64,000 nucleotides of DNA from Aestuariispira ectoiniformans. Its GTDB lineage: Bacteria; Pseudomonadota; Alphaproteobacteria; UBA8366; Aestuariispiraceae. Position 1 is the first letter of the stretch, and each line of letters starts with the position of its first letter. The position numbers and the translations under genes were made by a program. The stretch lies in contig NZ_CP062788.1 in assembly GCF_025136295.1 (NCBI RefSeq), forward strand, positions 496,001 through 560,000, read 5' to 3'. The notes below the pieces were generated by a model. It had not been told where the DNA came from and ran no database searches. It saw only the letters and a list, made by a program, of their open reading frames with translations. Below are positions 23,481 through 29,807 of the stretch, piece by piece.

Positions 23481-23717
23481 ATGAAGCATGTAGTTCGTAA
23501 TGATATGCGCGCCTATGCCGCCTTCCGCGAGGGGCAGGATCGCACGTTGCACGACAACCTGGCCAGGCGCATGCTGGCCATGAACCTGTCCCGACGGAAA
23601 CTGAAACTGACCGGCGAACCCCTGAGAGCCTATGCGGCCTTCCGCACCGGCCAGGACCGGGTCCGCCCTGACGGTAATCACGGTCTGTATTTCCACCGCC
23701 GCAGCCTTTACGGCTGA
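23481..23717 (+). CDS. Small basic protein with a duplicated RAYAAFR-GQDR motif
   Basis: I do not recognise this 78-residue protein. It contains two near-copies of one motif, [12 protein letters not shown] near residue 10 and [12 protein letters not shown] near residue 49, each followed by a short polar stretch. The protein is basic (many Arg and His), with no signal peptide or membrane helix. A good TATAAT promoter and AAAAGGAGACGG before the ATG support expression, and a very strong hairpin terminator follows. It is divergent from thrS. It may be a nucleic-acid- or ribosome-associated peptide, but that is only a guess. Confidence 0.65.
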
Positions 23718-23760
23718 TCTTCGGGCATGGCTTTTCCCGATCAAGAATAAAGTCCTAAAA

Positions 23761-23796
23761 GGTACAGGCCCTGCCGGTAACAGCAGGGCCTGTACC
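23761..23796. terminator. Perfect 14-bp hairpin terminator
   Basis: GGTACAGGCCCTGC and GCAGGGCCTGTACC pair without mismatch around an 8-base loop. AAAA precedes and CGTTTCG follows. It separates the small repeat protein gene (plus) from the LysE gene (minus) and may terminate both. Confidence 0.7.
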
Positions 23797-23822
23797 CGTT
23801 TCGCGCCACCGGCCGATGGCCA

Positions 23823-24416
23823 TCACGCGACTAGATTTTCAACCATGAACCAGAGGGCGGTGAGGCCAAGCACACCCCCCAGCGCCCGATCCACCCAGGA
23901 TCGCGCCGGACCGTTCATCACCTTTGTCACCATCTGTCCGGCCAGCGCCCAAAGCAACAATGAAAAAGCGGGCAAAACAGTGAAAAGAAAGAGCAGTATC
24001 GGGATAGCCGCCATATCCCGGGTCACGCTCAATGCCACGACCATCAGCACCAGTGTCCAGCTTTTCGGGTTTACCAGTTGAAAGGCAAAAAGCGGCCAGA
24101 ACCCCGCCCGGGGTAACAGGGGCGAGGCCCGGCCGCTCTCGCGAGGGATCATCATGCCCACGGCCAGCCACAGCAGGAGCCCCCCGCCAATGGCCGCCGC
24201 TACGGGCTGTACGGCAGGCCAGTGCCGGAACAGCGGCTCCGCCCCCGTCAGGACAGCAACAAGCAACGCAAGCGTGCCAAGGATCACGCCGCCCATTGCG
24301 GGGATTGCGGCCATAACTCCCCGTTCCGCCGACAGGGCCATGACGAGGAAATTGTTGGGGCCGGGGGTAATCACCGCCACCAGGATCGTCACAGCAAGTC
24401 CCAACCAGACTTCCAT
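23823..24416 (-). CDS. LysE family exporter, coupled to glutathionyl-hydroquinone reductase gene
   Basis: A 197-residue membrane protein. The N-terminus EVWLGLAVTILVAVITPGPN is a LysE/RhtB signature and FQLVNPKSWTLVL the second family block. The ATG at 24416 shares its A with the TGA stop of the upstream gene (TGATG) behind GGGGTGAGG, so translation is coupled. Together with that gene and the divergent LysR it forms a likely detoxification unit in which a product of reduction is exported. That role is inferred from context only. Confidence 0.85.
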   Translation of the reverse strand: MEVWLGLAVTILVAVITPGPNNFLVMALSAERGVMAAIPAMGGVILGTLALLVAVLTGAEPLFRHWPAVQPVAAAIGGGLLLWLAVGMMIPRESGRASPLLPRAGFWPLFAFQLVNPKSWTLVLMVVALSVTRDMAAIPILLFLFTVLPAFSLLLWALAGQMVTKVMNGPARSWVDRALGGVLGLTALWFMVENLVA

Positions 24417-25450
24417 CACCTCACCCCTACCAGATCGCATGCGTCATAGGGCCTGTCACATCCATCGGACGCATAAACCATTATTTCACCGAAACGGTTT
24501 CGGTCATGAGAGGCGCACCAGTCCATGTCAGGCATGAGAGGGACAATGCCATGGGGATTATTGTCGCCGTCGTTCTGCCAGTATCCCTTTTGAATCAATG
24601 AAAAATCCACTGTCTCCGCCACCCCGGGAAGCTGGTACAGGTCGCGGGCATAGGCCCAGAGAGCGGGGTAATCGACCAACCGGCGGCGGGTGCAGCGGAA
24701 ATGGCTGTAATAGGCAATGTCGAAACGCAGGAGGACCGGCAACAGCAACCAGTCCGCGCCGGTCAGGACATTCCCCAAAAGAAAGCGCTGGTCTTTCAAC
24801 CGTGTCTCCAGGGCATCTAGGGTCGCAAAGACCCGGCTTACGGCATCGTCATAGGCGGATTGCGTCCGGGCAAAACCGGCACGATAGGCGGCATTGGACA
24901 AATTCTCATAAAGCCAGCGGTCCATTTCGTCGATTTCTGCCGCCAGAACTGCCGGGAAAAAATCCCGCTCATTGCCCCCGGACCGGTCATCCAGGGCGTT
25001 CAGGAAGCGCATCAAGTCACTGCTTTCGTTGGAAATTATACGCTGATCCTGCGCATCCCACAAAACCGGGACGGTCGCGCGGCCTGTGAAGGACGGATGG
25101 CCCAGGCTGTAAAGCTGGTGCAGATGCCGGATCTGGACCGCGCTGCCCGGCACGCGCCATGGATTACCATTGTTCACCGGATAGCCCTGAACGCGCCTGC
25201 CCCCGGCAATCTGGACTGGGATCACCGGCTGTAATTCCTTTTGAATTCGTAACAAATTCACCCGTTGCGACCACGGGCAACTCATGGAGGTGATCAGGTG
25301 ATAACGTCCAGGTGTCATCACGTCCGCTGCAATTCGGGCCATTTCCTGCCTGGACTTGACCCTGTCCAGCCCGGTTTCAGGTCTTTTGAAATCACCATTA
25401 TGGATAATGGTGTCATCATCCACCCATTGCCCGTCAATCAGCATACCCAT
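24416..25450 (-). CDS. Glutathionyl-hydroquinone reductase-like glutathione transferase (ECM4/YqjG family)
   Basis: A 344-residue Xi-class GST-like enzyme. The thioredoxin fold has the active cysteine C58 in SMSCPWSQR; in most relatives the motif is CPWAHR, so the local sequence is slightly divergent. Other family blocks are ISNESSDLMRFLNAL and LFLGDV-like RFLLGNVLTGADWLLLPVL. The family reduces glutathionyl-hydroquinones using GSH. AGGAGA precedes the ATG. It is the first gene of an operon with the LysE exporter and divergent from a LysR regulator. Confidence 0.85.
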   Translation of the reverse strand: MGMLIDGQWVDDDTIIHNGDFKRPETGLDRVKSRQEMARIAADVMTPGRYHLITSMSCPWSQRVNLLRIQKELQPVIPVQIAGGRRVQGYPVNNGNPWRVPGSAVQIRHLHQLYSLGHPSFTGRATVPVLWDAQDQRIISNESSDLMRFLNALDDRSGGNERDFFPAVLAAEIDEMDRWLYENLSNAAYRAGFARTQSAYDDAVSRVFATLDALETRLKDQRFLLGNVLTGADWLLLPVLLRFDIAYYSHFRCTRRRLVDYPALWAYARDLYQLPGVAETVDFSLIQKGYWQNDGDNNPHGIVPLMPDMDWCASHDRNRFGEIMVYASDGCDRPYDACDLVGVR

Positions 25451-25522
25451 CGGTATCTCCTGTGTTTTTCTATAGGGTAAGCAGAAAGCGTGAAAAAATA
25501 TGGTTCAATAGGTAGGAGTTTT

Positions 25523-25539
25523 GGTCTATTTTTCAGACC
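25523..25539 (+). promoter_or_regulatory. LysR-type T-N11-A dyad abutting a start codon
   Basis: GGTCT (25523-25527) and AGACC (25535-25539) form a dyad ending immediately before the ATG of the LysR gene at 25540. It contains a T-N11-A core typical of LysR binding boxes and could serve autoregulation and control of the divergent GST-LysE operon. Confidence 0.5.
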
Positions 25540-26433
25540 ATGAAGAATTTACCTTTGAATGGCCTGCGGGCCTATGCGGCCGTCTGGCGTCTCGGCGGGG
25601 TTCGCGCGGCGGCGCGGGCGCTGGATGTGACCCATTCCGCCGTCAGCCGCCATCTGGGCGAGGTGGAAAACTGGATCGGCTGCCCCCTTACCTACAAGGA
25701 AGAGGGTAGAAAGAAGCTGTCTTTCACTGCCGAAGGGGCGGCCCTGGGCCGGGCAGTGCAGGATGGTCTGGACCAGATTTTGGGCACCGCCGCCAGTCTA
25801 CAGGAACGCCGCGGCGCGGGCAGCGTTGTTGTATCGACCGCACCGTCTTTCGCCACGCGATGGCTGTTGCCCAGGCTACCCCGACTGGCGGAGCAGCATC
25901 CCCATATTCAGCTTTCGGTGCTGGCCGACCAGCGGTTGGAGGATTTCAGCAATCAGGATGTGGACCTCGCAATCCGTATGGGCGAGGGACCCTGGCCGCA
26001 TCTGAAATGCGAGTTGTTGATGGACGAGCGTCTATATCCGGTCATGGGCAGCAAGCTTTGGGCGCGGACCGGCCACAGCAAGGACCCGGACATCCTGAAC
26101 CGCCTGACGCTGCTGCATGACCGCGATCCGCAAACCGCCTGGTCCCAGTGGCGGGATCGGTTCGGCCCACGCGATCTGGCAGTCACGGAAGGGCCACGCA
26201 TGGCGTCGTCGGATTTGCTCCTACGGGCCGCAGCCCTGAACCAAGGGGTCGCGCTGGCCCGGCACCGCCTTGCCGCCGACGACCTTGCCAGCGGTCAGTT
26301 GGTGCGGCCGTTTTCGGGTAAGGAACTCGCCCTGGAACAGGCCTATTGGATTGTCACACCGCGCTACCGCCCCAACCGGCAGGCCGTCAAAACGGTGGTG
26401 GAGTGGTTGCAGACGATGGGCCGGGAGACGTGA
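25540..26433 (+). CDS. LysR family regulator, GcvA-like
   Basis: A 297-residue LysR regulator. The N-terminal winged helix is NGLRAYAAVWRLGGVRAAAR followed by VTHSAVSRHLGEVE. The effector domain is of the GcvA/AmpR type (LLPRLPRLAEQHPHIQLSV, DVDLAIRMGEGPW). It is divergent from the glutathione-reductase/LysE operon and most likely controls it through the dyad just before its own start. The Shine-Dalgarno-like TAGGAG lies about 24 bases before the ATG, farther than normal. Confidence 0.88.
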   Translation: MKNLPLNGLRAYAAVWRLGGVRAAARALDVTHSAVSRHLGEVENWIGCPLTYKEEGRKKLSFTAEGAALGRAVQDGLDQILGTAASLQERRGAGSVVVSTAPSFATRWLLPRLPRLAEQHPHIQLSVLADQRLEDFSNQDVDLAIRMGEGPWPHLKCELLMDERLYPVMGSKLWARTGHSKDPDILNRLTLLHDRDPQTAWSQWRDRFGPRDLAVTEGPRMASSDLLLRAAALNQGVALARHRLAADDLASGQLVRPFSGKELALEQAYWIVTPRYRPNRQAVKTVVEWLQTMGRET

Positions 26434-26439
26434 AAACGA

Positions 26440-26451
26440 CCCCGAAAGGGG
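26440..26451 (-). terminator. Short GC hairpin between LysR and PAPA-CTERM genes
   Basis: CCCC-GAAA-GGGG forms a short tight hairpin. On the minus strand it is followed by TCGTTTTC, so it may end the small PAPA-CTERM transcript. Confidence 0.4.
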
Positions 26452-26491
26452 CCGCATTCACACTTGGGAAAGTAGAGGTAGAAACGCCAGG

Positions 26492-26671
26492 TCAGGAACG
26501 GCGTTTGGCACGACGCAGGGCCAGACCAACCACCAGCAACCCCAAACCCAGCAACAGGAGACCGGCAGGTGCCGGCGCCTCCGTAACCGCATTTACAATA
26601 TCCGCCCTCGCACTACCCGAGAGGGCCACAAATGCAGCCAAAAAAACAATACAAAAACCGCCGGACGTCAT
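26492..26671 (-). CDS. 59-residue minimal PAPA-CTERM (exosortase-substrate-like) protein
   Basis: A very short gene that is easy to miss. The 59-residue product has a signal peptide (about 1-23, hydrophobic IVFLAAFVALSG, cleavage near ARA/D) and then only about 8 residues. A complete sorting tail follows: APAPAG at 32-37, a helix LLLLGLGLLVVGLAL and the basic end RRAKRRS. Thus nearly the whole protein is targeting signals, with almost no mature domain. GGGGTAGGGA precedes the ATG. Either it is a genuine peptide precursor or the remnant of a deleted PEP-CTERM gene. The intact frame with good codon use and stop favours a real gene. Confidence 0.65.
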   Translation of the reverse strand: MTSGGFCIVFLAAFVALSGSARADIVNAVTEAPAPAGLLLLGLGLLVVGLALRRAKRRS

Positions 26672-26839
26672 TCCCTACCCCGAAACCTTACACATTTTGC
26701 CCACCCAGGATCCCTTTGGGCACAAAGATTTTGGCTGTGATCGGAGCAAATTGCGGGCCAGAAATTTAACTGTTCCAAATCAATATGTTAGCAATTTAAC
26801 GATAGAAGGCTTGTAAGAAATTCCGACAGAAAGGCTGTC

Positions 26840-27403
26840 CTATTCCATCCCAGCAATCAGAGACTGTGTATCCGTGACCTCTGCATATTCCTGCCCCAGG
26901 ATCGCAAGCGTCAGATCATAGACGGTCTGTGCATCGAAAAGGCGGCCATCCGGCGCCGTGACCGACACGGCCGTGGTGGCATCTTTGGGCAGAATGATAT
27001 GATAGCCAAGCGCCTTTCCCGTCCGGATCGTGGCATCCATACTGTTATGGATGACAACGCCGGTCAGGACGAAACTCTTCGCGCCCAGAGCCTTTAGCTG
27101 GCGGTCCAGTTCGGTATCTACAAAAGCACAGTTCTGGTGTTTGATCAGCACCGGCTCACCGCCTGCCGGGGCAACATCCGCCTTGATCCGGTTCCAGGGA
27201 CCATGGGTGTGATAGGTGGATGTGGGCGTCGCCTCGTCATGTTTGACATGCAGAACCGGCCATTTGTTGCGCCGCCAATGCGCCAACAACTTTTGGATCG
27301 CCTTCACATAATCGGGGTTGTTCTTATCCGCCCAGACGGGCTGGTCGATTGCGTCCTGAACATCCAGGACGACAAGGGGGAGTACCTGCACAGCCTGCCT
27401 CAC
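26840..27403 (-). CDS. Isochorismatase-family cysteine hydrolase homologue with Ser at the nucleophile position
   Basis: A 187-residue cysteine-hydrolase fold. The acid D14 is in PLVVLDVQDA, and the lysine K88 in VLIKHQNCAF is present. In the third motif (VLTGVVIHNSMDATIRTG) the usual nucleophilic Cys is Ser121. Homologues in this family split amides or vinyl ethers; the Ser variant may be slow, inactive or altered. The start is GTG at 27403, which overlaps the stop of the upstream VOC gene (GTGA), so translation is coupled. The TetR at 27879 is probably the regulator. Confidence 0.8.
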   Translation of the reverse strand: MRQAVQVLPLVVLDVQDAIDQPVWADKNNPDYVKAIQKLLAHWRRNKWPVLHVKHDEATPTSTYHTHGPWNRIKADVAPAGGEPVLIKHQNCAFVDTELDRQLKALGAKSFVLTGVVIHNSMDATIRTGKALGYHIILPKDATTAVSVTAPDGRLFDAQTVYDLTLAILGQEYAEVTDTQSLIAGME

Positions 27404-27750
27404 TTATGCGCCAGAATATTAATCAATTTTCCATAGGGGTCGCGGACATAAAATCGCCGCACGCCCCAGGGCTCTTCCGCCGGTCCGTATTCGATCGGAA
27501 ACCCGGCATCCTGCATGCCCTGATAGACAGCATCCAGATCATCCACCTCAATCGAGAGATCGGGGACAGGGGTATCGGACCCGCCCTGTTCGGCGAAACT
27601 GACCTGAATACTCATATGATCCTGCAGGCCATAGGTCGCAATCCATCCATGGTCCATCAAAAGGTCCAGCCCCAGGACATCCTGATAGAACCGTTTTGCC
27701 TCCGCAACATTTCGGGTTTCGATATTGGCGATGATCCGTTTGACCGTCAT
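27400..27750 (-). CDS. VOC superfamily (glyoxalase-like) protein
   Basis: A 116-residue VOC protein with both beta-alpha-beta modules: NIETRNVAEAKRFYQDVLGL at the start and GVRRFYVRDPYGKLINIL at the end. The C-terminal metal-ligand position is not the usual Glu, so enzymatic activity is uncertain; many such proteins are binding-type resistance factors. It is followed by and coupled to the isochorismatase-like gene. It is divergent from the TetR gene, whose palindrome lies about 95 bases upstream. Confidence 0.8.
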   Translation of the reverse strand: MTVKRIIANIETRNVAEAKRFYQDVLGLDLLMDHGWIATYGLQDHMSIQVSFAEQGGSDTPVPDLSIEVDDLDAVYQGMQDAGFPIEYGPAEEPWGVRRFYVRDPYGKLINILAHK

Positions 27751-27842
27751 GATTTCCCCCTTTGGTTGATTCCCGACTTTAAATCCGGTGCTCCGGAATG
27801 TCTTTTCCTTTTTCCTCTTCCCACAAAAAGATATTCCTAATA

Positions 27843-27864
27843 TAATACGATACGTCTCGTATTA
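27843..27864. promoter_or_regulatory. 22-bp near-perfect palindrome, likely TetR operator
   Basis: TAATACGA (27843-27850) and TCGTATTA (27857-27864) surround ACGT at the exact centre; only one base pair of the 22-bp dyad is mismatched. It lies 14 bases before the TetR start codon, in the region divergent to the VOC/isochorismatase operon. This is a strong candidate for TetR autorepression and operon control. Confidence 0.7.
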
Positions 27865-27878
27865 GAAAAGGACCCGAT

Positions 27879-28445
27879 ATGGCCCGCACAGCCAGTGAAA
27901 CCGTCCGCAAGGCCGTGATGGGGGCAGCCCTCGCGCTGCTCGCGGAGCAGGGCTATCTGAAAACCACCATGGAAGGGATCGCCGCGCGGGCCGGGGCCGG
28001 AAAGCAGACATTGTATCGCCGCTGGGGTTCCAAGGCCGATCTTTATCTGGAGCTTTACGAGGATCTGGTCCCGCCCGCCGCCCTCGACCTGGACACGGGT
28101 AGTACGAGAGAGGACCTCGAAGGCCTGCTGACCCGGCTGTTCGTGATTTACGGCAACACCCAGATCAACCGGGCGCTTGCCGGATTGGTGGCGGAACTTC
28201 CCCACGCCCCCGACTTTGCCGACCGCATGCGCGAACGCTTTTTAAAAAAGCGCCGGGGCATGATCGCCACAATCGCGCAGCGCGGGGTGGCGCGCGGCGA
28301 ATTGCGGGCGGATATCGATCCTGAATTTGTCAGCGACCTGATTTCGGGCGCCGTCTGGTTTCGAGTTCTGCTCGAACATCAACCGCTGGATCAGGCCTAT
28401 GCGACGCAATTGGTCGATTATGTATTGAAAGGAATAGAGGCATGA
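27879..28445 (+). CDS. TetR family transcriptional repressor
   Basis: A 188-residue TetR regulator. The N-terminal HTH is GYLKTTMEGIAARAGAGKQT with recognition helix LYRRWGSKADLYLELY. The C-terminal ligand-binding domain has a helical pattern typical of the AcrR-like C-terminal family. AAAAGGACCC precedes the ATG. Its stop overlaps the start of the downstream GNAT gene (ATGA), so they form a two-gene unit. The palindrome just upstream is its probable operator. Confidence 0.9.
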   Translation: MARTASETVRKAVMGAALALLAEQGYLKTTMEGIAARAGAGKQTLYRRWGSKADLYLELYEDLVPPAALDLDTGSTREDLEGLLTRLFVIYGNTQINRALAGLVAELPHAPDFADRMRERFLKKRRGMIATIAQRGVARGELRADIDPEFVSDLISGAVWFRVLLEHQPLDQAYATQLVDYVLKGIEA

Positions 28446-28936
28446 CGGAAACGGAAATCCTGACCGGTTATCGCCCCGGACTGCTGGGGGAGGTTGCCGC
28501 CTGGCATGGCCGCTACTACAGCGAAAACTGGGGTTTTACCTCTTTTTTCGAAGCCAAGGTGATGGGCGGCATCAGCGAATTTGCCACACGCCTGGACGAT
28601 CCGCGTGTATTGCTGGCAAGCGCGTGGTCGGGAACGGATTTCCTGGGCAGCCTGACCGTCGACAACGACGGCGACCGCCAGGCGGACTGCGCCCATCTGC
28701 GCTGGTTCATCATGAGCGACGCCGCGCGTGGCAAAGGGTTGGGACGAAAGTTATTCGCAACGGCCATGGAATTCATGCCCCGGCAGGGATACCGCAGGGC
28801 CTATCTGACAACCTTCAAGGGGCTGGGCGCGGCGGCCAGGCTTTACAGCGATTTCGGCTTTGCCCTTACCGACGAGCAACCAGGAAATACCTGGGGTGTC
28901 ACAGTCACCGAACAACGCTTCGATATCGCCTTTTGA
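28442..28936 (+). CDS. GNAT family acetyltransferase, coupled to TetR gene
   Basis: A 164-residue N-acetyltransferase. The acetyl-CoA binding segment is FIMSDAARGKGLGRKLFATA and the C-terminal part is TFKGLGAAARLYSDFGFAL. The N-terminal region (LGEVAAWHGRYYSENWGF) is of the MarR-associated GNAT type. It starts at the ATG that overlaps the TetR stop by four bases, so it is co-expressed with the repressor. It may modify the ligand that the repressor senses; that is inference. Confidence 0.85.
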   Translation: MTETEILTGYRPGLLGEVAAWHGRYYSENWGFTSFFEAKVMGGISEFATRLDDPRVLLASAWSGTDFLGSLTVDNDGDRQADCAHLRWFIMSDAARGKGLGRKLFATAMEFMPRQGYRRAYLTTFKGLGAAARLYSDFGFALTDEQPGNTWGVTVTEQRFDIAF

Positions 28937-29042
28937 TAGACTTCCGCCAGATCGTTACATTCTTAAGCAATTGTCTACGGCCGCAAATGGCCTTAGCATG
29001 GTCCACAGGGAGCAATAGTCGCGAAAAGCCGACAAATAGACG

Positions 29043-29807
29043 ATGACCAACAGGGTAATACTTCACGGCCTCACGCATGCCGCTTTGATCTGCCTGTTTC
29101 TGTTCGCAGGAACAATGGCCCATGCCCGCAACGTGTCCATGGTCACCATAAACTGGTCTCCCTATTTTGCCGAAAATCTGGAGGAAGGCGGTTTCTTCAC
29201 TGTTCTGGTGCGCGAGGCCTTCAAGGCGGGCGGCCATGACGCGAACATCCGCTTCCTGCCCTGGAAACGCGCCATGAACATGGTGGAACGCACACAAAGC
29301 GACGTTCTTATGGGCGCTTATTTCACCGAGGAACGGGATAAGCAGTATTTTTACAGCGCACCGATTTTCCCGGTCAGACTTGTGCTGGCAGCCAATCGCC
29401 GCACCGGACTGACCGGCTATAAGGATTTGCGCGAATTATCCAGCTACCGGATCGCCGTTTGCCTCGGCTGGTACTATGGCGAGGCTTTTGAGAAAGCGGA
29501 CTATCTCAAAAAGGAACCGGCCCTGGACCAGATCATCAATATCCGCAAGCTGATCGGCGGGCGCGTTGATATCGTTGCCGGCAGCGAGGTCGTGCTCCGC
29601 CATGAAATAGACCAGCGCCGCGATTTCAGCATGAAGGATGTGACCATCCTGAAACCCGATCTGGCACGGGAAGAACTTTATATTCTGACGTCCCGCCAGC
29701 TTCCGGACGGAAAACAGCTTATCGAGGATTTCAACCGCGGGATGGCCATCATCCGCAAGAACGGCATGTTCGACGCCATCCTCAATCGGTTCAAGGTCAG
29801 CAGCTAG
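29043..29807 (+). CDS. Periplasmic solute-binding protein, family 3, orphan
   Basis: A 254-residue secreted protein with a signal peptide (residues 1-28, ICLFLFAGTMAHA/R). It has the family 3 start NVSMVTINWSPYFAENLEEG and the AFKAGGHDANIRFLPWKRAM segment. It lacks the permease and ATPase genes of an ABC transporter nearby. It resembles the alphaproteobacterial and gammaproteobacterial stand-alone binding-like proteins of unknown role. Its stop shares the CTAG tetramer with the convergent glycosyltransferase. Confidence 0.82.
   Translation: MTNRVILHGLTHAALICLFLFAGTMAHARNVSMVTINWSPYFAENLEEGGFFTVLVREAFKAGGHDANIRFLPWKRAMNMVERTQSDVLMGAYFTEERDKQYFYSAPIFPVRLVLAANRRTGLTGYKDLRELSSYRIAVCLGWYYGEAFEKADYLKKEPALDQIINIRKLIGGRVDIVAGSEVVLRHEIDQRRDFSMKDVTILKPDLAREELYILTSRQLPDGKQLIEDFNRGMAIIRKNGMFDAILNRFKVSS

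Follow-up and report, generated by a model that had tools for sequence, protein, structure and literature searches.

Can a protein that consists of little more than a signal peptide and an exosortase sorting tail be a genuine substrate, or is its gene what is left of a larger one? This question is raised by a gene of 59 codons plus stop on the minus strand, at 26492-26671 of a 64,000-nucleotide stretch of the Aestuariispira ectoiniformans genome (here called the window; positions 496001-560000 of the 4.36-Mb single-contig genome, G000). The action of exosortase A on its substrates is hard to test, because these are diverse and mostly without homology beyond the tail. Section 5 of Haft et al. 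(2006, PMC1569441) describes PEP-CTERM substrates in these terms, recognisable homology being mostly confined to the tail.

Features of the short gene and its product

The frame reads from 26671 downward to a stop codon at 26494-26492, and its translation is MTSGGFCIVFLAAFVALSGSARADIVNAVTEAPAPAGLLLLGLGLLVVGLALRRAKRRS. An intact frame with an ATG had been predicted at this place and is indeed present, on the minus strand, which the prediction did not give. By eye, a signal peptide is predicted at residues 1-23 (26603-26671), with the n-region MTSGG, the hydrophobic run FCIVFLAAFVAL and an A-R-A motif before D24. Only eight residues, DIVNAVTE (residues 24-31, 26579-26602), form the spacer, and the sorting tail then follows with APAPAG, a hydrophobic helix and RRAKRRS (residues 32-59, 26495-26578). 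The PEP_CTERM model TIGR02595 scores 17.0 bits on the 59-residue protein, a marginal pass over its cut-off of 16, and the match reaches residue 57 of 59, placing the domain at the extreme C-terminus; the description as an almost passenger-free PEP-CTERM protein is upheld. The Pfam model PF07589 gave 17.7, below its gathering score of 20.7, a miss that we do not treat as defining because the Pfam model of that time caught 22% of TIGR02595 instances, as given in section 5 of PMC1569441. From the eight-residue spacer it follows, as had been proposed, that the product would be an oligopeptide if both ends were cut.

The ribosome site and the signal peptide ending at about residue 23 were also part of the original prediction. 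The ribosome site is a G-run (GGGGTAGGGA-ATG) resembling the G-rich stretches ahead of several other PEP-CTERM genes of this genome. The putative signal peptide needs a qualification: since its n-region has neither K nor R it is weak by the usual rule, and the other PEP-CTERM proteins of the genome show, by eye, a K or R near the start where this one does not. The n-region has possibly been changed: 24 nt upstream of the gene's ATG there is another ATG in frame, and between them, at a distance of two codons from the gene's start, stands a TAG (26669-26695, minus strand); because of this TAG the frame cannot grow upstream. Both the uncharged n-region and the TAG just ahead of the ATG favour a deletion remnant, that is, a full-size PEP-CTERM gene that lost its middle in frame and kept promoter, signal peptide and tail, its product perhaps being made but useless; against this, the frame is open up to its stop.

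Short ORFs were also filtered for a hydrophobic start, an A-x-A, a PxP, a helix and a basic tail. This filter, designed after the ORF had been seen, retained one frame in the window, the short gene itself, and none in 60 first-order Markov windows. Past the stop, a hairpin GGCCCC-TTTC-GGGGTC followed by GTTTTC (26438-26453, minus strand) is a possible terminator with a weak T-run (z -2.24; 5 of 200 shuffles fold equally well); a scan with a terminator consensus did not list it.

Promoter element

Ahead of proteobacterial PEP-CTERM genes, the promoter description of Haft et al. (2006, PMC1569441) gives a two-part element, a 17-nt motif ending in TTTACA (a putative response-regulator site) and then a sigma-54 site, with a spacer of 62.8±10.6 nt between them (range 32-92) and a mean of 71 nt onward to the start codon. 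Upstream of the short gene we found a bipartite element of this type, absent from the original prediction, on the minus strand. It comprises a putative PrsR box, CTGTCGGAATTTCTTACA (26812-26829), which follows the motif description in section 7 of that paper, and a predicted sigma-54 type -24/-12 promoter, TGGCCCGCAATTTGCT (26745-26760), located 51 nt past the box and 73 nt ahead of the ATG; both distances agree with the spacing published in PMC1569441.

Both strands of the window were scored with a weight matrix trained on 12 PEP-CTERM promoters from outside it. The site of the short gene ranked first with 37.1 bits, a rank that carries some circularity, as the consensus for picking the training motifs was composed after all 16 upstream regions, the short gene's included, had been viewed. 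Ranks 2 to 4 belong to the other three PEP-CTERM genes of the window (32.8, 29.1 and 27.4 bits); rank 5 (19.7 bits) reuses the sigma-54 site of rank 4, and the best independent background reached 18.4. That no other site of the window matches as well as the one ahead of the short gene argues against a deletion remnant. One PEP-CTERM-like gene of the window, L017 (34469-35303, plus strand), has the second-best PrsR/sigma-54 element; scoring 14.5 bits, it is missed by the curated TIGR02595 cut-off.

Moreover, an exact promoter pattern matched 12 sites in the 4.36 Mb of the genome, each of the 12 immediately preceding a PEP-CTERM gene, the short gene being one of these; this pattern too was composed after the upstream regions had been seen, and the independent part of the result is the zero matches elsewhere in the 4.36 Mb. 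It covers 12 of the 16 PEP-CTERM loci examined, missing L004, L006, L007 and L008, and the reversed pattern used as a control had no matches across the genome. Judged by these predicted signals, an element of its own upstream and a hairpin past the stop, the short gene is a free-standing unit.

Exosortase system and PEP-CTERM set of the genome

The genome encodes one exosortase (TIGR02602, 160.6 bits), which the XrtA model TIGR03109 scores at 252.4 bits against a cut-off of 208. This XrtA is fused to EpsI and lies in a cluster with PrsK, PrsT, PrsR, an XrtA-system deacetylase, two glycosyltransferases and a putative O-ligase, each scoring above its cut-off; so does RpoN, which the genome also encodes. 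Because a PrsR-box/sigma-54 element stands upstream of it and XrtA, PrsK, PrsR, PrsT and RpoN are all present in the genome, we place the short gene in the exosortase-A gene set.

TIGR02595 gave 18 matches in the genome at E up to 10, 14 of them over cut-off; the loci examined (L002-L017, 16 in all) leave out the weakest two, L018 and L019, which are not PEP-CTERM-like by eye. The remaining 15 of these 16 candidates have longer open frames, 14 at 198-270 aa and one at 99 aa. Matches to TIGR02595 at E up to 0.05 were present in at least four of the 14 family genomes, this one counted.

Three adjacent PEP-CTERM paralogues (L005, L010 and L006; G000:C1:1838295-1840426, minus strand) resemble one another in their central regions (GVIGLALVVDGSGSI...), which by eye look like von Willebrand A domains. 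Elsewhere, L008 (G000:C1:3916828, minus strand) encodes an 85-residue PEP-CTERM protein with a spacer of ~30 residues and is flanked by two full-size PEP-CTERM genes; its promoter has a good PrsR box, and the GC of its -12 element is lost. This loss makes decay within the PEP-CTERM set plausible and so counts on the side of a deletion remnant.

Search for orthologues

In this genome and 58 relatives, a set that includes no second genome of the genus to which A. ectoiniformans belongs, we obtained mostly tail matches and no short full-length match except for a 53-residue protein of genome G022 (E 0.81). A collection of genome contigs, which may omit very near genomes, gave no orthologue at E 1e-3. 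When the DNA of the locus was searched against this genome and 13 family genomes no orthologue was found either, the best non-self match covering 73 bases of the tail region at 72% (E 0.007), and among the matches inspected from profile searches of 36 chosen genomes and of 385 genomes of the class there was no orthologue of the 59-residue protein. Three candidates that were near-full-length by coordinates were rejected: that of G038 (L021) is the tail of a 284-residue frame, in G031 (L022) a signal peptide was not seen, and that of G046 (L043) is without a PEP motif.

Among named species, Aestuariispira insulae has the closest threonyl-tRNA synthetase (78%). At its locus (L062) the gene block between thrS and a glycosyltransferase pair (23500-29800 of the window), with the short gene within, is missing. 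Named by eye, the block holds LysE-type, GST-like and LysR genes, the short gene, isochorismatase-like, glyoxalase-like, TetR and GNAT genes and a binding protein. That no orthologue was found in the relatives, the contig collection, the family DNA or the profile searches favours a deletion remnant, and so does the block missing in A. insulae.

Short PEP-CTERM proteins in other Alphaproteobacteria

Where the original prediction had looked to homologues, the outcome is mixed: the searches gave no orthologue, neither a short one nor one with an inserted domain, but other proteins do share this short architecture, and one pair of them is conserved. At least seven other alphaproteobacterial genomes (G022, G135, G188, G271, G284, G364 and G099) carry proteins in which, by eye, about 5-8 residues separate the predicted cleavage site from the PEP-like motif, and all seven have an exosortase over cut-off. 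G022, which belongs to the same order but to a different family, has two of them, with 53 and 56 residues. A two-row profile run over the 36 chosen genomes, 17 loci being inspected, yielded proteins of 55 aa (G188), 55 aa (G135), 57 aa (G271), 63 aa (G284) and 57 aa (G364). An eight-row profile run over the 385 class genomes had matches in 50 of them at E up to 5e-4, most of these being tails of long proteins; it contains proteins that it later recovered, and its new additions are two more tandem copies in G271, a protein of 51 residues and with an LPGP motif in G099, and, doubtfully, one protein in G353. At least 7 of the 385 class genomes, the host genome included, or at least 8 with G353, have short proteins that the profile matches over nearly their full length, with at most 17 candidates scored per genome; G022 falls outside this sample.

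Several candidates were not counted. The protein of G353 (L326) is doubtful, with 77 residues from the first reasonable ATG, in a genome without an exosortase over cut-off; a 78-residue protein of G157:C9 has a long spacer; and short frames in G028, G034, G042, G025, G157:C81, G286 and G352 had no start with a signal peptide by eye or lay at contig ends.

The promoter element accompanies part of this group. A strong one precedes the 53-residue gene of G022 (41.3 bits; a second box a little further up comes next with 25.8). In G271 (G271:C122, L318, minus strand) three genes lie head to tail at 3658-3485, 3429-3259 and 3216-3043 (57, 56 and 57 aa), with an upstream box and -24/-12 site that score 26.4, where the runner-up in 13 kb scores 12.3, and that end 36 nt ahead of the first ATG; the tails of the three proteins are nearly identical and their spacers different. 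The top site of 12 kb in G135 (27.1 against 15.0) ends 33 nt ahead of the start codon, the best site in G188 is upstream but weak (17.3 against 15.7), and G099 combines a good sigma-54 site with a poor box (23.1 in total; 1 kb searched). The scan for the PrsR/sigma-54 element found none upstream of the second gene of G022 or of the genes of G284, G364 and G353.

The short genes of G284 and G364 occupy the same place, each following the same upstream gene in a similar neighbourhood. For this pair NG86 gave dN 0.30 and dS 1.10 and YN00 gave 0.30 and 1.61, a dN/dS of ~0.27 or less that comes from one comparison of ~57 codons with dS above 1. The pair carries VPEG instead of VPEP, and the member tested with TIGR02595, that of G364, scored 14.6 against the cut-off of 16.

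In the region G099:C4:111822-113774 (minus strand), the short gene L325 for the 51-residue protein of G099, a signal peptide plus LPGP-type tail, precedes by ~1.1 kb the part of a second exosortase gene that was matched. This short gene, with a sigma-54-like site ahead of it, and the second exosortase are possibly a dedicated exosortase/mini-substrate pair.

We also surveyed genomes starting from the promoter, using a pattern that misses the G271 array and G135. It listed 72 sites outside the host genome in 29 genomes, and among the 60 examined, the other 12 having been left out by eye, there was no plausible PEP-CTERM ORF of less than 100 aa. One ORF of 109 aa was obtained, several pattern sites fall within coding frames, and a 55-residue ORF starting with TTG was dropped as it has no hydrophobic helix.

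The near-zero-spacer forms in seven other genomes, including the tandem triplet and the syntenic pair with its dN/dS of ~0.27, argue against a deletion remnant. The passenger-free design looks rare yet recurrent, and not simply like a broken gene.

Comparison with known systems

The PEP-CTERM proteins of exosortase A (XrtA/PrsK/PrsR/PrsT; TIGR02595), as the cited sections of Haft et al. (2006, PMC1569441) present them, share with the short gene the same tail, a signal-peptide-like start, the single-gene unit, the same PrsR box with its sigma-54 spacing and an XrtA in the genome; the 59-residue protein differs from them in having practically no region between both signals. Among curated models, NCBIfam TIGR04200 (targ_of_XrtJ, PExPT-CTERM protein) describes an exosortase target of 57 positions, about as long as the 59-residue protein, and to judge from its length and name it spans the whole protein. 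With a cut-off of 40 bits, TIGR04200 is not among the 11 families matched by the 59-residue protein at E up to 10, and the 53-residue protein of G022 scores 15.4 of the 40 bits required. The earlier statement that substrates normally carry a folded domain has to be corrected in the light of this 57-position model and of the near-zero-spacer proteins in other Alphaproteobacteria.

Another PEP-CTERM gene with -24/-12 motifs is the RpoN-dependent pepA of Aquincola tertiaricarbonis, related to floc formation, for which the account in PMC9850573 gives a mapped transcription start and the motifs TGGCAC / CTGCTT. The NCBIfam model floc_PepA has 261 positions, of which the 59-residue protein matches only 223-260, far below cut-off.

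A literature search by keyword found, in the portions of text it returned, no description of such passenger-free PEP-CTERM proteins, and no paper of the collection searched contained 'PExPT-CTERM' or 'VPEID-CTERM'. The passages available from PMC12188702 hold nothing on short substrates, and a match for PEP-CTERM together with 'small proteins' was rejected, the small proteins in the matching text being phasins. The known part is a PEP-CTERM protein of the exosortase-A system, with TIGR04200 already a 57-position target model. The passenger-free form under predicted PrsR/sigma-54 control, and its recurrence, tandem array included, looks new.

Discussion

We consider that the short gene probably encodes a real minimal substrate of exosortase A, and we put the probability of this reading, drawn from sequence comparison, at roughly 0.6. 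Against it count the orthologue searches, which found none, the uncharged n-region, the rarity of the design, and the traits of the conserved G284/G364 pair, with its VPEG, the sub-cut-off TIGR02595 score of the member tested and no PrsR/sigma-54 element found. The gene would be co-expressed when the cell turns on its exopolysaccharide-associated surface proteins, and its product would be exported by Sec and cut by signal peptidase past the ARA motif. The remaining peptide would then be held in the inner membrane by the tail helix until XrtA acts near the PAP motif, giving a peptide of 8-12 residues (DIVNAVTE plus part of APAP) that may be released or passed to whatever carrier normal substrates receive. 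The tail would transiently occupy XrtA and could in this way tune the speed at which large substrates are processed. Since there is no passenger for display, the use of the protein more likely lies in the tail itself, and a role through the tail appears likelier than one through a secreted, sequence-specific peptide. The triplet of G271, with near-identical tails and differing spacers, would favour the tail, though mildly, since in every set of PEP-CTERM proteins it is the tails that are conserved.

The deletion remnant, already named as the alternative in the original prediction, loses weight through the promoter element, which is intact and scores highest, and through the recurrent design, yet for this copy it keeps some probability: recurrence weakens it for the design, without proving function of the short gene. 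On balance we regard it as unlikely.

That the 8-12 residue product is itself active, as a signal or as a matrix component, seems improbable to us. Both processing signals would leave only DIVNAVTE-APAP, as such an activity would suppose, and the promoter element groups the short gene with surface and exopolysaccharide functions; however, the other near-zero spacers share no sequence by eye, even across three tandem copies, and the two immediate neighbours of the gene, by eye a LysR-type regulator and an isochorismatase-like enzyme, are neither receptor nor exporter. A two-helix membrane microprotein, in which the weak signal peptide stays uncut and the protein, as a helical hairpin, makes direct contact with XrtA or PrsK, would suit the uncharged n-region, the two hydrophobic segments ~8 residues apart and the positive C-terminus, but is very improbable in view of the clear ARA motif and of the K, R or H in the n-region and the A-x-A or S-x-A motif that most other short forms carry, because of which cleavage is to be expected for the class.

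The reading as a minimal substrate can be widened, and here our proposal is tentative and may well prove wrong: mini PEP-CTERM proteins may form a separate, regulated class in Alphaproteobacteria, made through PrsR and sigma-54 together with the full-size substrates, and serving through their tails as competitive occupants of XrtA that set its throughput, and not for display. The rarity of the design in the promoter survey and the VPEG of the conserved pair speak against a common class. A naturally occurring substrate whose two signals are nearly adjacent, under its native regulator, would narrow the question of how exosortase A works to one short peptide; if such proteins do tune the exosortase, they would represent a new regulatory layer in the assembly of the biofilm and floc matrix.
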